Part shown: positions 9,197 to 17,984 of the stretch, in pieces
Layout: the number at the start of each line of letters is the position of its first letter
How positions within the stretch are numbered: the stretch's first letter is position 1
Origin: Selenomonas sp. F0473
GTDB taxonomy: Bacteria > Bacillota > Negativicutes > Selenomonadales > Selenomonadaceae
Length of the DNA stretch: 64,000 nucleotides
Reading direction: 5' to 3'
Assembly (NCBI RefSeq): GCF_000315545.1
Contig: NZ_JH992902.1
Span: 965,280-1,029,279, forward strand
Made by a program: the position numbers and the translations under genes
Notes under the pieces: model-generated
What the model was told of the DNA's origin: nothing
Seen by the model: the letters and a program-made list of their open reading frames with translations, nothing else
The model's database searches: none

Positions 9197-9670
9197 TTAC
9201 TTGCTACCCATAAATGGGTCTCTCGGGTCAAATAAACTCAACTGATCAGATTCCCTGTCTCGTTTCAGTTGACCTTCGATGTATTCTGTTATCGCCTTCG
9301 TGTTTTTCCCTACCGTATCCACATAGTAACCTTTACACCAAAACTCCCGGTTCCTATATGCAAATTTCATATTCCCAAACTTCTGGAATATCATTAAGCT
9401 GCTCTTGCCTTTTAGATACCCCATAAACCCCGATACACTCATTTTCGGTGGGATACTTATCAGCATGTGGATATGATCCGGACACACCTCTCCTTCGATT
9501 ATTTCTACACCTTTCCACTGGCATAACGTCTGCAATATCTCTCGTGTTGCCGTCCGCTTCTCTGCATAAAACACTTTCCTCCGATATTTCGGGGCAAATA
9601 CTATGTGGTACTTACAATTCCACCTCGTATGTGCTAAACTATGTCTGTCTGCATTTTGTTGTTTTGACAT
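9197..9670 (-). CDS. tnpA: IS200-family Y1 (HUH) transposase TnpA
   Basis: 157 residues, full length for IS200 TnpA. The HUH metal site is H66-I67-H68 in CPDHIHML and the catalytic tyrosine is Y130 in ITEYIEGQ; KYHIVFAPKYRRKVFY is the family's N-terminal block. It cuts and rejoins single-stranded DNA at the element ends. Frame and catalytic residues are intact, so it may be active. Upstream, inverted words CCCTAGTA (9684-9691) and TACTAGGG (9732-9739) followed by a T7 run on the plus strand resemble the IS200 leader structure. Confidence 0.93.
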   Translation of the reverse strand: MSKQQNADRHSLAHTRWNCKYHIVFAPKYRRKVFYAEKRTATREILQTLCQWKGVEIIEGEVCPDHIHMLISIPPKMSVSGFMGYLKGKSSLMIFQKFGNMKFAYRNREFWCKGYYVDTVGKNTKAITEYIEGQLKRDRESDQLSLFDPRDPFMGSK

Positions 9671-9862: not shown

Positions 9863-12800
9863 TTACGCAAACAATTCGACCTGATTGCTCTCGGTCATGC
9901 CGTCAAGGCAGCCGTGGACGCGGAGGGCGTCGATGCACGGCGCGGGGACGTGGGCGCGCGTGGCGAGGTCCTCGATGGAGATGAAGACGCCGTCTTTGCG
10001 CGCGAGGGCGATTGCCTGCGCCGCCTTCTGTCCCATCCCGGGGATTGCGGTCAGGGGGGGCAGCAGGGATTTCTCATGCAGGATGAAGGTCTCTGCATTG
10101 GAGGTGTAGATGTCGACGGGCTCGCAGGTAAAGCCGCGCAGGTACATCTCCCACGCGAGCTGGAGGACGATGAGGATGTCCTGTTTCTTGTTGTCAAGCT
10201 TGCCGCGGTGCTCGCGCGCCTCGGCGTTCAGGGCGTCAATCGCCTCTTTGATGGCCTCTTTGCCCCTAGCGATGATGTTCGCGTCGAACTCGTCGGCGCG
10301 GATGGAGAAGTAGGCGGCGTAGTACGCGAGCGGGTAATGCACTTTGCAGAACGCGATGCGGTAGCCCATCATGACGTAGGCGGTCGCATGCGCGCGTGGA
10401 AAAAGGTATTTTATCTTTTGGCAGGAATCGACGTACCATTCGGGGATGCCGCCCCCGCGCAGCGTCTCGACGACGTCGGGCGCGATGCCCTTGCCCTTGC
10501 GGACGTTCTCCATCGTCTTAAACGAGAGCAGCGGGTCAATGCCGTTCTGCATGAGATAGTTCATGATGTCGTCGCGCGCGGAGATGGCGTCCTTCAGCGT
10601 GCTCGTGCCCGCCTTGATGAGGTCCTGCGCGTTGCCGAGCCAGACGTTCGTGCCGTGGGAGAATCCGGAGATGCGCACGAGGTCGGCGAAACAATCCGGA
10701 TTCGAATCGTCAATCATCTTTTGCGTAAACGACGTGCGGAACTCGGGGATGCCGTACGTGCCCATATTCGCACCGAGCTCCTCGGGCGTGATGCCGAGCG
10801 CCTCGGTCGATGTGAAGATGGACATGGTGGCGGGGTCGTCGAACGGGATGGTCTCCGGGTCGCGGTGTGTGAGTTCTTCGAGCATCTTGATGACGGTCGG
10901 GTCATCGTGCCCAAGAATGTCAAGCTTGACGAGGCGCTCGCTGATGGAGTGGTAATCAAAATGTGTCGTGAGCGTGTCGGATTCCATGTTGTTCGCGGGG
11001 CGCTGAATCGGCGTGAAATAATGCACGTCCATATCGCGCGGCACGACCATGATGCCGCCCGCATGCTGCCCCGTGGTCGCCTTGACACCCATGCAGCCGC
11101 GCATCATGTGCTCGATATAGGGGCGCCCCTTCTGCTCGCCCATGTCCTCGAAGTAATGCATGGCGTAGCCGTAGGCGTTCTTGTCCTGCAGGCCTGAGAT
11201 GGTACCCGCGCGGAAGACGTTCATCTTGCCGAAAAGCACCTCGGTGTACTTATGCGCGACGGGCTGATAATCGCCCGAAAAATTGAGGTCGATATCGGGA
11301 ACCTTGTCGCCGTCAAAGCCGAGAAAGACCGCGAACGGGATGTTGTGTCCGTCCTTCGTGAGCGGCGTGCCGCAGACGGGGCAGTCCATCGAGGGCAGGT
11401 CAAAGCCGCTGCCGACGGAGCCGTCCGTGATAAATTTATTATATTGACAGTGTTTGCAGCGGTAATGCGGCGGCAGCGGGTTGACCTCCGTGACGCCGAT
11501 CATGGTCGCGACGAAGGACGAGCCGACGGAGCCGCGCGAGCCGACGAGATAGCCGTCGTCGTTGGATTTCTTGACGAGGCGCTGCGCGATGATATAGAGC
11601 GCGGAGAATCCGTGCCGGAGAATGGGTTTGAGTTCAAGTTCGAGGCGGTCGGCGACAATCTGCGGGAGATTTTCTCCGTAGAGCCGCCGCGCCTTCGCGT
11701 ACGACATCTCCTGGATCTCGCGGTCCGCCCCCGGCACCGTCGGCGCGTAGAGCTCGTCCGGGATGGGCAGGAACTCTTCGACTTCGTCGGCGATGCGGCG
11801 CGGGTTCGTGACGACGCACTCGTAGGCGCGCTCCGCGCCGAGATAGTCGAACTCGGCGAGCATCTCGTCCGTCGTCCGCAGATAGAGCGGCGGCTGGCGG
11901 TCGGCGTCGCGGTAGCCGTTCGCCTTTTGCAGCATGGCGCGGTAGACGGCGTCCTCGGGATTGAGGAAATGGACGTCGCAGGTTGCGATCAGGGGCTTGC
12001 CGAGTCTCTCGGCGAGTTCCGAGACCTTGCGGTTGATATTGCGGAGGTCCTCGTCGTCGCGGATCGGGAAGCGGTCGTCGATCTTGAGGAAGTCGTTGTT
12101 GTGGATCGGCTGGATCTCGAGGAAATCGTAGAACGCGGCGATGCGCTCGAGGTCCTCGTCGCTCTCCCCGCGCACAATCGCGCGGATCAGCTCGCCCGCT
12201 TCGCACGCAGACCCCACGATGATGCCCTCGCGGTACGCGGCGAGGATGGCGCGCGGGACGCAGGGGCGCCCGCGTTTTTTCGTGCCGCGGAAAAAGCGGA
12301 TGTGCGAGATGGAGACGAGCTTGTAGAGGTTGTAGAGCCCCGTTTTATTCTTCGCGAGAAAGATGATGTGGTTCGACCGCTGCTGCGCGGGGTCGTCGAC
12401 GAGGTAGCCCTCCATGCCGTAGATGACCTTGATGTCGACGCCCTTTTTCTTGAGCTTGCGCGCGGTGTTCATCGCCTCCGGAAACGCCTGCACCACCCCG
12501 TGATCCGTGATGGCGACCGCCGGCCAGCCCCAGCGCGCCGCCGTCTCAACGAGCGCCTCCGGCGGCACGACGGCGTCGAGCGCGCTCATCTTCGTATGCG
12601 CGTGCAGTTCGACGCGCTTGACCGCGGCGTTATCCTCGCGCTGCGGTACGTTCCGCTTCTCGATGCTGTCGATGAAGAGCACATAGTCGCCGGCAAATTT
12701 ATCATATTCGATCTTGCCTTGCATACGAACGGCGCAGCCCTTTCCGATGGCCTTCAGGATGCGCTCGACCTCGGCGTCGATCTCTTCCTGCGCGGCTTTC

Positions 12801-13642
12801 CCGCGAATGCCGAAAAATTTCTTGCAGGCGATGCCGTTCGTCTTGTCGGCAAATTTGAGCAGGAGAATATATGCGCCGGACTTGAGTTTGTTCGCCTGCG
12901 GCGCAAAGATCTCGCCCTCGAGGACGATATTCTTGACCTCGTCCTCGACGACGCCGAGTTCGCGCGCCTCGCCCTGCACCCGACGGCCGATGATGACATT
13001 CTCGGGGCGCGTCGCTCCCTTCTTCGCGCCCCTTGCCGCGCGCGATGCGGACGGCCGCGCGGCGGATACGTTTTTTTTCGCGGCGACGGCTGCGGGAGGC
13101 GGCGTCCACGCGGGCGCCGGGAACTCCTCCCCCGGCGCACATTCCGTGCACACGATGCGGCAGGCGCAGCCGACGTTCCTGCGGATTGCCTCCTCGAGGC
13201 GATCCGTCACGACACGCTCCCCCAGCAGGGTCGTGCCAAAACGCCCCGGCGCCTCAAGACGAATGACGTTGCCGTCCACGGCATAACGGCACTGGCGCAG
13301 GGTATGAAAGAGGACGGAATCGCCCGCCGCCGCTTGGTTCACTGCACGTTCCCAGATCGGAGCGACGGCACTCTCGAGCGCAACGATGTTCTGCTGGATA
13401 AAGGCGGCCGCAAGCCCGTAGTTCTCCGCAATCCGCGCGGAAATGCGCGCAAGAAATTCCTCTCGGAGGACCGAAGGCGTGCCGACGACAAGCTCCCACT
13501 CGTTTGTCTCTGCAGACACCTCGACGTGACGCAGCGCGCAGGCGCGCAAAAGAGCCCGCTCCTCATCGGAGAGGGATAGGCCGCGGATAAGGCGGAGGAG
13601 CATATCCTCCGCACCGGGGAGAATCCGATAGGTCTTGCTCAT
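9863..13642 (-). CDS. polC: DNA polymerase III alpha subunit, PolC type, without the inserted exonuclease domain
   Basis: 1259 residues. Order: N-terminal domain, a linker at about 170-215 rich in Ala and basic residues, an OB domain (215-335), the PHP domain starting VELHAHTKMSALDAV (347), then the polymerase core. The core has a Cys-type zinc site (CKHCQYNKF and DCPVCGTP) and catalytic PDIDLNFSG. In ordinary PolC a 3'-5' exonuclease of about 180 residues splits the PHP domain after IYGxE...LVDD. Here IYGMEGYLVDD (407-417) runs within eight residues into NHIIFLAKNKTGLYNLYKLV, the second PHP half, so that domain is absent. Its ATG overlaps the upstream stop (ATGA). Confidence 0.95.
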   Translation of the reverse strand: MSKTYRILPGAEDMLLRLIRGLSLSDEERALLRACALRHVEVSAETNEWELVVGTPSVLREEFLARISARIAENYGLAAAFIQQNIVALESAVAPIWERAVNQAAAGDSVLFHTLRQCRYAVDGNVIRLEAPGRFGTTLLGERVVTDRLEEAIRRNVGCACRIVCTECAPGEEFPAPAWTPPPAAVAAKKNVSAARPSASRAARGAKKGATRPENVIIGRRVQGEARELGVVEDEVKNIVLEGEIFAPQANKLKSGAYILLLKFADKTNGIACKKFFGIRGKAAQEEIDAEVERILKAIGKGCAVRMQGKIEYDKFAGDYVLFIDSIEKRNVPQREDNAAVKRVELHAHTKMSALDAVVPPEALVETAARWGWPAVAITDHGVVQAFPEAMNTARKLKKKGVDIKVIYGMEGYLVDDPAQQRSNHIIFLAKNKTGLYNLYKLVSISHIRFFRGTKKRGRPCVPRAILAAYREGIIVGSACEAGELIRAIVRGESDEDLERIAAFYDFLEIQPIHNNDFLKIDDRFPIRDDEDLRNINRKVSELAERLGKPLIATCDVHFLNPEDAVYRAMLQKANGYRDADRQPPLYLRTTDEMLAEFDYLGAERAYECVVTNPRRIADEVEEFLPIPDELYAPTVPGADREIQEMSYAKARRLYGENLPQIVADRLELELKPILRHGFSALYIIAQRLVKKSNDDGYLVGSRGSVGSSFVATMIGVTEVNPLPPHYRCKHCQYNKFITDGSVGSGFDLPSMDCPVCGTPLTKDGHNIPFAVFLGFDGDKVPDIDLNFSGDYQPVAHKYTEVLFGKMNVFRAGTISGLQDKNAYGYAMHYFEDMGEQKGRPYIEHMMRGCMGVKATTGQHAGGIMVVPRDMDVHYFTPIQRPANNMESDTLTTHFDYHSISERLVKLDILGHDDPTVIKMLEELTHRDPETIPFDDPATMSIFTSTEALGITPEELGANMGTYGIPEFRTSFTQKMIDDSNPDCFADLVRISGFSHGTNVWLGNAQDLIKAGTSTLKDAISARDDIMNYLMQNGIDPLLSFKTMENVRKGKGIAPDVVETLRGGGIPEWYVDSCQKIKYLFPRAHATAYVMMGYRIAFCKVHYPLAYYAAYFSIRADEFDANIIARGKEAIKEAIDALNAEAREHRGKLDNKKQDILIVLQLAWEMYLRGFTCEPVDIYTSNAETFILHEKSLLPPLTAIPGMGQKAAQAIALARKDGVFISIEDLATRAHVPAPCIDALRVHGCLDGMTESNQVELFA

Positions 13643-14199
13643 TCTTCGTACAGCCTCTTATACTGCGCCCTGTCCTCGAGGACCGCCCGCACATAGAGCC
13701 GCGTCTCGGGATAGGGAATCGCGTCGATTTCGTCAAACGTATCCGTCCAGCGGTAACGCTCCATCCAGTCCCGCACATTGCCGCGCCCCGCGTTGTAGGC
13801 CGCAAGCGCGAGAATCTCGTTGCCGCGGAACTCCTTCTCGAGCTCCGCGAGATACCATACCCCGTAGCGGATGTTCATCGCCGGGTCGTAGAGGTAATCC
13901 TCGGTAAACTGCTCGCCGAGCCGCCCGGCAATCCACGCGGCGGTCTGCGGCATGAGCTGCATCAAGCCGACCGCGCCGCCGTCCGAGGCGGCATCGCTGC
14001 GGAATTTGCTCTCGTTCTTGATCACCGCGGCAACGAGAAAGGGATCCGTATGCTGCTGGGCGGCGCTCGTTTCAATGTAGCTGCGGTAGTCGTAGGGATA
14101 GATGTAACTGCGCTCGAACCATGCCCAGCCTCCGACGACGGCAAAGGCGACGGCGGCGACAACCGCGAGCCGCAGCAGCAGCCACAGGCGCCGCCACAT
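13639..14199 (-). CDS. SLT-type lytic transglycosylase, membrane-anchored
   Basis: 186 residues. An N-terminal hydrophobic segment (LWLLLRLAVVAAVAFAVVGG) exports or anchors the protein. The domain has the catalytic glutamate in AAVIKNESKF, then GAVGLMQLMPQTA and ALAAYNAGRGNV, the classic soluble-lytic-transglycosylase motifs. It cleaves peptidoglycan to anhydromuropeptides. The ATG at 14199, one base after the coaE stop, is taken as start; a TTG 45 bases upstream is possible but would lie inside coaE. Coexpression with coaE and polC is set by the 4-base overlap downstream. Confidence 0.88.
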   Translation of the reverse strand: MWRRLWLLLRLAVVAAVAFAVVGGWAWFERSYIYPYDYRSYIETSAAQQHTDPFLVAAVIKNESKFRSDAASDGGAVGLMQLMPQTAAWIAGRLGEQFTEDYLYDPAMNIRYGVWYLAELEKEFRGNEILALAAYNAGRGNVRDWMERYRWTDTFDEIDAIPYPETRLYVRAVLEDRAQYKRLYEE

Positions 14200-14200
14200 T

Positions 14201-14806
14201 CTACGCAGGCGGCGCAACACGCTGGCCCCACAGTTCCGCAACAAAACGCATCATATCCTCCCGTGCCCCGCCGTTGTCGATGACGATATCCGCACGCGCA
14301 CACTTTTCCGCGAGCGGCATCTGCGCGGCGATCCGCGCGCGTGCTTCCGCCTCGCTCATCTCCGGATTCCGCGCCATGAGCCGCATGAGCTGCACATCGG
14401 GAGGAACGGCGACGACCCAAGACTCGTCGACGAGCCGGTGCCACCCCGCCTCAAAGAGGAGCGGCGCATCGAGAACGACCGCCGCATGTCCCTCCTCCCT
14501 GAGATCCGCAATCCGATCCATCGCGGTGCGGCGGATCAGCGGATGCACGCGCGCGTTGACCTCGTCCCGCAGCGCGGGATCGGAAAAGACGCGCCGCGCG
14601 ATTCCCGCGCGGTCAAGTGTACCGTCCGCGGCGAGAATCCCCTTTCCAAACTCCCGCACATAGAAATCGTAGACGCCGCCGCCGGGACGGGAGAGCTCGT
14701 GCGCGATGGCATCCGCGTCCACAATTGCCGCGCCCTCTTTGCGCAGAACCTCGCTCACGGTAGATTTGCCGCAGGCAATACCGCCCGTCAGCCCAATCAC
14801 CTTCAT
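14201..14806 (-). CDS. coaE: dephospho-CoA kinase
   Basis: 201 residues, normal length. P-loop GLTGGIACGKSTVSEVL at the N-terminus, DADAIAHELSRPGG (the substrate/lid region) and VVLDAPLLFEAGW are family signatures. It phosphorylates dephospho-CoA, the last step of CoA synthesis. The ATG shares one base with the polA stop (TGATG), so translation is probably coupled to polA. The polA-coaE neighbourhood is common in Firmicutes. Confidence 0.95.
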   Translation of the reverse strand: MKVIGLTGGIACGKSTVSEVLRKEGAAIVDADAIAHELSRPGGGVYDFYVREFGKGILAADGTLDRAGIARRVFSDPALRDEVNARVHPLIRRTAMDRIADLREEGHAAVVLDAPLLFEAGWHRLVDESWVVAVPPDVQLMRLMARNPEMSEAEARARIAAQMPLAEKCARADIVIDNGGAREDMMRFVAELWGQRVAPPA

Positions 14807-17478
14807 CACTTTGCCTCCGCCCAGTTCTTCCCCGTGTGCACATCGACGGCCAGCGGAACGGAAAGCGCCGCCGCGCCGCTCATCGCCTCCTGCAGGAGCG
14901 ATGTCACCTGCGGAATCTCGTCTCCCACAACCTCGAGCACGAGTTCATCGTGCACCTGCAGGAGAATACGGCTCTTTAACTTTGCCGCGCGCAGCGCCTC
15001 ATCCGCGCGAATCATCGCGATTTTGATTAAATCCGCCGCCGTCCCCTGAATCGGCGTATTCATCGCCATGCGCTCGGCGTTCGAACGCTGCATGAAGTTC
15101 CGGCTGTTGATTGCGGGGAGCGCGCGCCGCCGCCCGTAGAGCGTCGTCACATAGCCGTCCCGATGGGCGTCCGCAACGACCTTGTCGAGGAACGCGCGCA
15201 CACCGCGATAGCGCTCAAAATAGCGTTCGATATAGCTCGCCGCCTCCTTGCGCGAGATGCCGAGGTCCTGCGAGAGGCCGTAGTCGCTGAGGCCGTAGAC
15301 GATGCCGAAATTGACCGCCTTCGCGCTGCGGCGCTGCGCGCTCGTCACCTCCGCGAGCGACACGCCGAGCACCTCGGACGCCGTGCGCGCATGGATATCC
15401 TGCCCGTGCAGGAACGCGTCGATGAGCGTCTCGTCGCCCGACATGTGCGCGAGGATGCGCAGCTCTATCTGCGAGTAGTCCGCCGATAGCAGCGCGTCAT
15501 AGCCCTCGCCCGGCTCAAAGAGCGCACGCACGGCGCGCCCCTCCTCCGTGCGCACGGGGATGTTCTGGAGGTTCGGGTCGGAACTTGAGAGCCGCCCCGT
15601 CGCCGTCACCATCTGGTTAAAACTCGTATGCACGCGCCCCGTCTCGGGACGGATGAGCGCGCCGATGCCCTCGAGGTACGTCGAGCGGATCTTGCTCCAC
15701 ATGCGGTAGGCGAGCACCTTGTTCACAACGGGATGTGCAGCGCGCAGCTCTTCGAGCACCTCGGCGTTCGTCGAGTAGCCCGTCTTGGTCTTTTTCATCT
15801 TTGGGGAAGTCAGTCCAAGTCGATCAAAGAGAACTTCGCCGAGCTGCTTGGGCGAGCTGATATTGAACTCTTCGCCTGCCAGCGCATAGATGTCCCGCTC
15901 AATCTCCGCGATACGTTCGCTTGCCGCCGCAAGCTCGCGCGCGAGCGCCGCGCGGTTGACCGCAACGCCCGTCCGCTCCATCGCCGCGAGAACGGGCACG
16001 AGCGGCAGTTCCATCTCGGCATAGAGCCGCGTCAAGTTCGCCTGTGCAAGCGCCGCCCATAGGGGCGCATAGAGCTGCGCCGCAAGAATCACCTCATAGA
16101 AGGCCGTCTGCTCGTTATGCAGCGGCGCGCCGCTGCCGAGATGCGTATACGCCGCATAGACCGTGCGTTCCTCCGCCGTCTGCGGCGCCGCAAGCTCCTC
16201 CACATAGGCAAACGCCGCGCGCTGTATCGACCGCAGCCGCTCCTCTGGACGCAGGAGATAATCTGCGAGCGCGAGGTCAACGACATGCGCGCTGATACCG
16301 ACGCCCGCCTGCGCGTACCGTTTCGCATCCCAAAGGATGACGGGACGCTCCGAGAGCAGCGAAAGCACCGCGGAAAAATGAGGAGATGCCGCATGCAGAA
16401 CGCCGCGCACCTCCCCGTAGGCAAGTGCAAGCGCCGTGAGACGCAGGAACGGCGCCGTCCCTTCGAATACGCCGGCGACGGCAAGGCTCTCTGCGCTGCG
16501 GAGCGCATTCATATCAAGGCCCGCGTCAAGGTCGGCCGCCGAGAGGTCGATTTCATCCGCCTCCGCTGCAAAGAGCGACTGCTCCACGTCCGCCGCTTCT
16601 GCCTGCGGCGCGAGATAGTCCGATAGGCTGCGCCACACCGAGCGCAGCTCGTACTCCCTGCAAAACGCCTCGAGTGCCGCGCGGTCGGGCTGCATGCGAA
16701 AATCCTCCGCCGTATAGCGGAGTTCCGGCACATCGCATTTGATTGTTGCAAGCTCTTTTGAGAGAATCGCTTGGTCGCGGTACTCTATGAGCGAGGCGCT
16801 CAGTTTTTTCCCGCCGGCCTCCGCCGCATGGGAGAGGACCTCTTCAAGCGTGCCGTACGTGAGGAGGAGTTTCGTCGCGGTCTTTGGGCCGATGCCCGGG
16901 ACGCCCGGAATGTTGTCCGAGCTGTCGCCCATGAGCCCCTTCATATCGATGAGGCGTATCGGCGCAAAGCCGTACTCCTCCTCGAACGCCGCCGTATCGT
17001 AGCGGCGCGTGTCGCTGATGCCCTTTTTCGTGAGGAGGACGCTGAGCCCCGCGCGGATGAGCTGGAGCGCGTCGCGGTCGCCCGTCACGACGAGGGTCTC
17101 CGCCCCCGCGGCCGCCGCCTGCGCGGCAAGCGTGCCGATGATGTCGTCCGCCTCGTAGCCCTTCATCTCGACGAAGGGGATGCCGAGGCAGCCCGCGAGC
17201 TTCTTCAGCAGCGGAATCTGCGCAACGAGCTCCTCGGGCGTCTTGTCGCGCGTCCCCTTATAGTCGGGGTAAAGCGCCGTCCGGAACGTCGTGCGGCTCT
17301 TATCGAACGCAATGACAATCTGCGTCGGCGCGTGTTCCCTGAGGAGCCTCACGAGCATCATCGCAAAGCCGTGCACGGCGTTCGTATGGACGCCGCGTGC
17401 GTTCGGCGGGAGCTGCAGCGCGTAGAACGCGCGGAAGAAGAGACTGCTCCCGTCGATGACTGCAAATTTTTCCGTCAC
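14806..17478 (-). CDS. polA: DNA polymerase I
   Basis: 890 residues. N-terminal 5'-3' flap nuclease (FAVIDGSSLFFRAFYAL; MKGYEADDIIGTLA; GDRDALQLI; GLMGDSSDNIPGVPGIGPKTA). The central region replaces the proofreading DxE motif with non-acidic sequence, so the 3'-5' exonuclease is probably inactive. The C-terminal polymerase has DYSQIELRILAHMSGD, RRSAKAVNFGIVYGLS and VHDELVLEV. It fills gaps and removes Okazaki primers. It starts with GTG overlapping the stop of the adenosyltransferase gene (GTGA). Confidence 0.95.
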   Translation of the reverse strand: MTEKFAVIDGSSLFFRAFYALQLPPNARGVHTNAVHGFAMMLVRLLREHAPTQIVIAFDKSRTTFRTALYPDYKGTRDKTPEELVAQIPLLKKLAGCLGIPFVEMKGYEADDIIGTLAAQAAAAGAETLVVTGDRDALQLIRAGLSVLLTKKGISDTRRYDTAAFEEEYGFAPIRLIDMKGLMGDSSDNIPGVPGIGPKTATKLLLTYGTLEEVLSHAAEAGGKKLSASLIEYRDQAILSKELATIKCDVPELRYTAEDFRMQPDRAALEAFCREYELRSVWRSLSDYLAPQAEAADVEQSLFAAEADEIDLSAADLDAGLDMNALRSAESLAVAGVFEGTAPFLRLTALALAYGEVRGVLHAASPHFSAVLSLLSERPVILWDAKRYAQAGVGISAHVVDLALADYLLRPEERLRSIQRAAFAYVEELAAPQTAEERTVYAAYTHLGSGAPLHNEQTAFYEVILAAQLYAPLWAALAQANLTRLYAEMELPLVPVLAAMERTGVAVNRAALARELAAASERIAEIERDIYALAGEEFNISSPKQLGEVLFDRLGLTSPKMKKTKTGYSTNAEVLEELRAAHPVVNKVLAYRMWSKIRSTYLEGIGALIRPETGRVHTSFNQMVTATGRLSSSDPNLQNIPVRTEEGRAVRALFEPGEGYDALLSADYSQIELRILAHMSGDETLIDAFLHGQDIHARTASEVLGVSLAEVTSAQRRSAKAVNFGIVYGLSDYGLSQDLGISRKEAASYIERYFERYRGVRAFLDKVVADAHRDGYVTTLYGRRRALPAINSRNFMQRSNAERMAMNTPIQGTAADLIKIAMIRADEALRAAKLKSRILLQVHDELVLEVVGDEIPQVTSLLQEAMSGAAALSVPLAVDVHTGKNWAEAK

Positions 17479-17984
17479 TTGTCGCGCACATCCTGTTCTT
17501 CGAGACGCATGAGGAGGAAGATATAGTCCGACATACGGTTGAGGAACCGGATGTCGATCTCATGGACATCCTCCTCGCGGCGCAGCGACCACGCGCGCCG
17601 TTCCGCCGTGCGCGCCGTCGTGCGTGCGAAGTCGAGCATCGCGCCGCCCTTCGTCTCGCCCGGGATGAGGAAGACGCGCAGCGGCGGCAGGCTCTTTTCG
17701 ATAGCGTCCTCATCCGCCTCGAGTTCCGCCATCATCTCGGCAGTAATCATCGGTTCTTTCCCGATACTCGCAAAATCCGCCATCAGCATGCCGAGTTTCT
17801 TCTGCAGATTCAGAATCCGCTCCTTGACGCTCTCATTCACAACAAAAGCACGCGCCATGCCGAGCGCGGAAGCGAGGCTGTCCACGCTCCCGTATACCTC
17901 GACGCGGCGGTGATCCTTATCGACGCGCTCGCCCGTGAAGAGGCTCGTCTGTCCCTTATCGCCCGTTTTGGTCGTCACACCCAT
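17475..17984 (-). CDS. PduO-type ATP:cob(I)alamin adenosyltransferase
   Basis: 169 residues. It shows TKTGDKGQTSLFTGERVDKD (ATP-binding N-terminus), VYGSVDSLASALGMAR, FLIPGETKGGAMLDFARTTARTAERRA and RFLNRMSDYIFLLMR, all hallmarks of PduO-type transferases. It makes adenosylcobalamin, the cofactor of the methylmalonyl-CoA mutase encoded at 30924-33003. A GGAGGAGACCGCA ribosome site precedes the ATG. It is the first gene of the polA-coaE-slt-polC string, an unexpected position for a B12 gene. Confidence 0.93.
   Translation of the reverse strand: MGVTTKTGDKGQTSLFTGERVDKDHRRVEVYGSVDSLASALGMARAFVVNESVKERILNLQKKLGMLMADFASIGKEPMITAEMMAELEADEDAIEKSLPPLRVFLIPGETKGGAMLDFARTTARTAERRAWSLRREEDVHEIDIRFLNRMSDYIFLLMRLEEQDVRDK

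Follow-up and report, generated by a model that had tools for sequence, protein, structure and literature searches.

Loss of the inserted proofreading exonuclease from PolC in Selenomonas and its relatives, with the PHP domain as candidate proofreader

How does a bacterium correct errors at the replication fork when its PolC polymerase carries no proofreading exonuclease? The question is raised by a stretch of 64,000 nucleotides (hereafter the window) from Selenomonas sp. F0473, an oral bacterium of the Centipeda/Selenomonas type (RefSeq assembly GCF_000315545.1, contig NZ_JH992902.1, positions 965,280 to 1,029,279), in which polC encodes a DNA polymerase III alpha subunit without the DEDDh exonuclease that interrupts the PHP domain of canonical PolC (Table 1). 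An earlier, sequence-only reading had described such a PolC beside a PolA that also seemed to lack proofreading, and had assigned the task either to a separate DnaQ protein or to the PHP domain itself. We find that the domain is genuinely absent, that its loss extends far beyond this genome, and that the PHP domain is the best candidate to have taken over.

The polC product is a single unbroken frame of 1259 residues that passes the cut-offs of two PolC family models (NF001688, 1406.7 bits; TIGR01405, 1288.9 bits), and Pfam recognizes in it PHP (residues 345-504), pol3 alpha, fingers and HhH domains, with no RNase_T match at E<=1. Only 13 residues separate PHP metal ligands E411 and H425, compared with 207-237 residues at the equivalent position in 118 PolCs with an intact DEDDh set and 12-39 in 161 exonuclease-less PolCs; the protein thus falls outside canonical PolC, as the sequence-only reading had claimed. 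The PHP start HAHT, noted there as preserved, lies at residues 347-350, and the full ligand check found all nine metal ligands (the HHDHEH[C/H]DH set). When residues 214-640 are modelled with AlphaFold (15 rows; mean pLDDT, the predicted local distance difference test, 86.2), the PHP fold is closed over the junction: one strand spans 405-415 and the following one 424-430, and the chain turns at the junction between them. The structures nearest to the modelled PHP region are PolC and DnaE. Nine named congeners share this architecture at 82-92% identity; the nearest, at 92%, is the PolC of Selenomonas artemidis, a species listed under Negativicutes as Centipeda artemidis. An assembly error, frameshift or misannotation concealing an exonuclease is next to impossible, given the intact frame, the single-contig genome and the same architecture in the congeners and in the class members listed in the survey below. 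The window protein is an authentic exonuclease-less PolC from which the domain has been cleanly lost.

Such PolCs are already known in kind, as are the PolA substitutions described further on, neither of which the sequence-only reading had mentioned. In 2013 Timinskas et al. reported Exo to be missing from 6% of PolC sequences and from 16% of PolC+DnaE1 systems, these PolCs being confined to Clostridia and Negativicutes, bar one extra Thermotogae copy (PMC3919608). The window PolC is one more member, with no essential difference: it shares the OB, PHP, Pol3 and HhH domains, the missing Exo insertion and a DnaE1-like partner elsewhere in the genome, an open frame of 1144 amino acids (aa) whose group 1 status we read from its intact PHP site (all nine ligands, HHDHEHCDH), not from a tree. 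In canonical PolC (Enterococcus 9QPC, Geobacillus 3F2B) the DEDDh domain lies between the third and fourth PHP strands, as described for E. faecium PolC, and the exonuclease was removed from the 3F2B construct for crystallization (PMC12592400). Residues 226-1259 of the window PolC align with 3F2B, of which it is a natural counterpart, except that PHP ligand 8 is D in the window protein but N in the aligned 3F2B and 9QPC. The exonuclease domain is dispensable for synthesis, because a Staphylococcus PolC from which both the N-terminal and the exonuclease domain are missing still synthesizes DNA rapidly in vitro (PMC3656037). Beyond the accounts cited in this text, literature searches covering titles, abstracts and passages turned up nothing further on proofreading in exonuclease-less PolC.

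Across 252 genomes of the host's class, the window PolC found a match in all 252, that in G070 being weak and at DnaE level. We take the class as Negativicutes because G083, a member of the host's genus, agrees with the Selenomonas artemidis record L036 in PolC score and frame. The length survey proposed by the sequence-only reading turned up no PolC frame above 1350 aa among the matches listed; the lowest-scoring families are not among these matches, and a dead exonuclease there would escape the RNase_T model (PF00929), as it does in genome G513 below. RNase_T itself was matched in 238 of the 252 genomes, and among the matches listed, down to 87 bits, none lies inside PolC or in any frame longer than 1003 aa. 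In the phylum draw described next, exonuclease-bearing PolCs reach 118-166 bits (exceptions are G437, a contig-cut fragment with 86 bits, and G513, in which the dead domain gives no match), so an active PolC exonuclease in the class would have been listed. The exonuclease-less form looks class-wide in Negativicutes.

The phylum draw was an even one of 149 genomes, five of them from the host's class, its own genome included. As read from the listing, 48 have an exonuclease-bearing PolC, 65 an exonuclease-less PolC and 36 no PolC, with four states called from contig-cut pieces (G437, G455, G463, G527); the exonuclease-less share of PolCs, 65/113, is far above the 6% of 2013. Among 151 genomes in G419's class, which we read as Bacilli, every PolC frame among the matches listed has 1427-1541 aa; G581, at least, is not one of these matches. 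On a tree of 128 PolCs built with the exonuclease region excluded, exonuclease state changes 12 times, 9 of these changes being forced by well-supported branches; a tree of 159 rows gives 14 changes, which become 20 separate losses once regains are disallowed. Both are quick trees, with support from the SH-like approximate likelihood ratio test (SH-aLRT) and no bootstrap. A recount of losses after weak branches had been collapsed again gave 20, no different from the full tree; we do not trust this recount and go by the 9 forced changes. Together, these surveys show the loss of the PolC exonuclease to be wide and recurrent.

How the domain was lost is suggested by four PolCs from two lineages (L367, L301, L317 and L386) that carry an exonuclease-sized insert without an intact DEDDh set, and that all retain their PHP ligands (4/4). 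The insert of L367, from G513, has 198 residues and is 30-35% identical to those of three relatives, against 70-71% in the core, while 275 pairs of active domains at the same core distance have a median identity of 54% and a minimum of 37%. In its congener G486 (genus g163), whose PolC core is 92% identical, a 39-residue stump takes the place of the insert, and the ends of this stump resemble those of the dead insert, with VHDQE near the start and EQLPSH at the end. RNase_T was detected in neither genome at E<=0.1 (96-97% completeness, ~150-160 contigs). From such cases the order would be that the exonuclease died first and was excised later. The dead-exonuclease and stump PolCs are new and, to judge from their residues, are exceptions to a 2026 survey, according to which it is PHP and not DnaQ that has been inactivated in Pol III alpha subunits; the same survey credits Clostridia mostly with three active proofreaders (PMC12926913).

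The other three dead inserts (L301, L317 and L386, from G300, G362 and G379) differ in kind, being 327-347 residues long in PolCs of ~1650-1700 aa, with the enlarged exonuclease domain dead yet conserved between species. Because the two pairs that were measured share 57-62% identity, these inserts are being kept rather than merely decaying, and perhaps serve as a structural or binding module. RNase_T proteins outside PolC are present in these three genomes and in G323.

We compared the PHP metal site in 283 distinct PolCs, picked for spread and not at random, of which 118 bear a DEDDh set and 165 do not (161 domain-less and the 4 dead). The ligand set HHDHEHCDH is intact in 160 of the 161 exonuclease-less proteins, or 164/165 counting the dead ones, and the sole exception, L096, is contig-cut; none of the intact sequences examined lacks both sites. 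Apart from that fragment there are 34 altered PHP sites, all in DEDDh-bearing proteins, 31 of them through a change of D to N at ligand 8 and three (L383, L384, L390) through gross alteration. The N at ligand 8 occurs in 26 of the 40 PolCs retrieved from G419's class, and in five others (L372, L373, L377-L379) with genomes that are likewise in the list for that class. The raw exclusion between an exonuclease and an altered PHP site is strong (Fisher p 1e-13 with the contig-cut row as changed, 6e-15 without that row), and it is dominated by this one class. Six inferred PHP changes, four losses and two regains, fall five times on exonuclease-bearing branches, once where exonuclease state switches and never on exonuclease-less ones (P 0.024 for all six by share of branch length). 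We regard the apparent mutual exclusion of the two sites as a trend only. As a separate observation, the three grossly altered proteins, with DEDDh residues intact and the PHP metal site wrecked, are the mirror image of the exonuclease-less form.

The search for a stand-alone dnaQ that the sequence-only reading had proposed returned two stand-alone RNase_T proteins in the genome (2.07 Mb, one contig): KapD-like L001 and DnaQ-like L002. We rejected L001 as a proofreader, its best model being KapD, though below cut-off (78.9 of 169 bits). L002 keeps the DEDDh active site, whose five residues are invariant across 18 aligned rows while other positions vary, and is matched in 14/14 genomes of its genus; the YEEQSLF tail is present in all 14, lengthened in two by one D. 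A relative, L158 (53% identity), ends in EQTSLF, which fits the sliding-clamp consensus; the first tail position in L002 is E, not Q. Against models of the DnaQ (epsilon) subunit L002 stays far under the cut-offs (TIGR01406, 16.6 vs 222.7; TIGR00573, 27.1 vs 71.5), and in the class it is matched in at least 53/252 genomes and at least 20/86 genera, some of the matches weak and the counts lower bounds from a search with a loose first step. This range led us to reject it as a class-wide substitute; in its own genus it is possibly a clamp-tethered helper or alternative, as its tail would suggest.

Elsewhere, 17 of the 65 exonuclease-less genomes of the phylum draw have no RNase_T match at all, and 11 more have matches only in frames >800 aa; the multi-genome searches caught one of the two proteins in the host genome, so that such absences and counts are soft. 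In a rerun, four single-contig exonuclease-less genomes (G414, G418, G483, G509) gave no RNase_T over cut-off, with three weak matches in all (E 0.02-0.18), in G418 and G509. A further DEDDh family, marked by the motif [IL]DFETA, which neither RNase_T protein found in the host genome has, occurs in several families of the class (L318-L320, L322-L324, L329-L333), and three of its members, L324, L329 and L330 ([IL]DFETAN; three genomes of family f30), end in EQMSFF, a clamp-motif-like tail.

Because these four single-contig genomes have no RNase_T over cut-off, PHP is the best candidate proofreader, and we think it rather probable, from the conserved sites, that the PHP domains of PolC and DnaE1 are the main proofreader at the fork. 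The inserted DEDDh domain would then have been lost, probably once no longer needed; error correction would most likely fall to the zinc-dependent nuclease sites in the PHP domains of PolC and DnaE1, and a clamp-tethered stand-alone DEDDh protein may assist in the host's genus. PHP proofreading has been reported for M. tuberculosis DnaE1 (PMC5636811), which shares the nine conserved metal-ligand positions; there the scaffold is DnaE and the activity reported, whereas here the scaffold is PolC and the activity predicted. Several results weigh against PHP in this role. The site is also intact in 84/118 DEDDh-bearing PolCs, and its conservation could be structural; the association between exonuclease and PHP state is not significant by independent pairs (12 pairs, about one informative), the branch-length test gives P 0.08 for the four PHP losses alone, and when N at ligand 8 is counted as intact the comparison shrinks to 3/118 altered vs 0/164 (p 0.07). 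The literature searched, as far as its available parts go, holds no report of PHP-site activity in PolC, and the host's own DEDDh protein with its conserved tail could do the proofreading instead.

That last alternative, proofreading in trans by L002 held on the sliding clamp by its C-terminal tail, draws on the invariant active site, the tail shared throughout the genus and the ending of L158. We consider it unlikely in view of the patchy class distribution, the scores far under the dnaQ models and a first tail position that departs from Q, with clamp binding putative. Both sources of proofreading named by the sequence-only reading thus proved real candidates, PHP being intact in PolC and DnaE1 and L002 having its DEDDh set, but L002 is not established as a class-wide replacement. 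Another alternative dispenses with proofreading by PolC: DnaE1, proofreading through its own PHP domain, would replicate the genome, while PolC would be an accessory polymerase that can do without. The 2013 authors raised the idea of DnaE1 as replicase for PolC+DnaE1 bacteria (PMC3919608), the host's DnaE has its PHP ligands intact, and the 36/149 phylum genomes without PolC fit it as well; yet the near-universal retention of PHP ligands in exonuclease-less PolCs is unexpected of an enzyme freed from fidelity constraint, and PolC is matched throughout the class. We hold this alternative to be improbable.

With PHP proofreading as the preferred explanation, a broader scenario takes shape, to which we give slightly less than even chances: in anaerobic Bacillota the PolC exonuclease would have been repeatedly switched off and then excised because an intact PHP is a working proofreader, the exonuclease-less lineages, among them genomes without detectable RNase_T, being natural PHP-only PolC replicases and a clamp-tethered DEDDh protein having been recruited in some genera. 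This analysis adds the extent of the loss as well as intermediates with a dead domain; these make an old question, whether PHP in PolC is a real proofreader or a relic or structural metal site, testable at the bench. The G513/G486 pair, with no RNase_T detected, would allow PHP proofreading to be tested in two enzymes 8% apart in the core. The form also matters for sequence selection: a 2025 study of a PolC-directed drug retained as 'PolC-defining' those sequences alone that have RNase_T within PHP (PMC11963600), a filter that drops exonuclease-less PolCs, the majority of those in the phylum draw.

The companion claim, that PolA lacks its 3'-5' exonuclease residues, was borne out. A proofreading Pol I carries the DEDDy set D355, E357, D424, Y497 and D501; in alignment with E. 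coli K-12 PolA, the window protein has D355 and E357 in a gap, T for Y497 and E for D501, with only D424 opposite a D, and Pfam finds no PF01612 in it at E<=1. The polymerase aspartates D705 and D882 (E. coli numbering) are retained. Since about half of bacterial PolA1 (Pol I) proteins have substitutions in the 3'-5' exonuclease motif (PMC12926913), this loss is ordinary.

Table 1. Features discussed in the text (window positions, unless marked as genome position)
Feature	Position	Strand	Description	Basis
polC	9863..13642	minus	DNA polymerase III alpha of the PolC type, 1259 aa, exonuclease domain lacking	Open reading frame, Pfam, family models, structure alignment
PHP, N-terminal half	12410..12610	minus	Residues 345-411; ligands H347, H349, D356, H381, E411	Pfam and ligand alignment
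Junction	12371..12409	minus	Residues 412-424, mostly turn between two predicted strands; site of the ~200-aa DEDDh exonuclease in exonuclease-bearing PolCs	
PHP, C-terminal half	11843..12370	minus	Residues 425 to ~600; ligands H425, C480, D556, H558	Far end estimated; Pfam match ends at 504
PolC C-terminal QVELF	9869..9883	minus	Presumed likeness to sliding-clamp binding motif	Read from sequence
polA	14806..17478	minus	DNA polymerase I of 890 aa; has the 5'-3' nuclease and polymerase domains, has lost 3'-5' exonuclease residues	
coaE-like gene	14201..14809	minus	Between polA and polC; 4-base overlap with polA; name presumed from reading the sequence	
SLT gene	13639..14244	minus	Lytic transglycosylase; 4-base overlap with polC	Pfam
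Transposase gene	9197-9670	minus	Just downstream of polC; presumably IS200/IS605 type; C-terminus holds QLSLF	
L002	1998805-1999341 (genome position)		DnaQ-like DEDDh protein with EEQSLF tail	

The two polymerase genes stand in a row of five that runs head to tail on the minus strand (9863-17984), from a gene that we take to be cobalamin adenosyltransferase-like through polA, the coaE-like gene and the SLT gene to polC, with 4-base overlaps at three of the four borders. Same-strand neighbours of polC in 44 relative loci include polA in 30, coaE in 31, SLT in 31 and the cobalamin adenosyltransferase-like gene in 10, and since the first three recur in most of these loci, PolC and PolA share a conserved gene cluster. 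The transposase gene next to polC is missing from all 44 relative loci whose flanks are complete, and this points to an insertion that is recent or peculiar to the strain. The QLSLF in its C-terminus is itself a clamp-binding-like motif.

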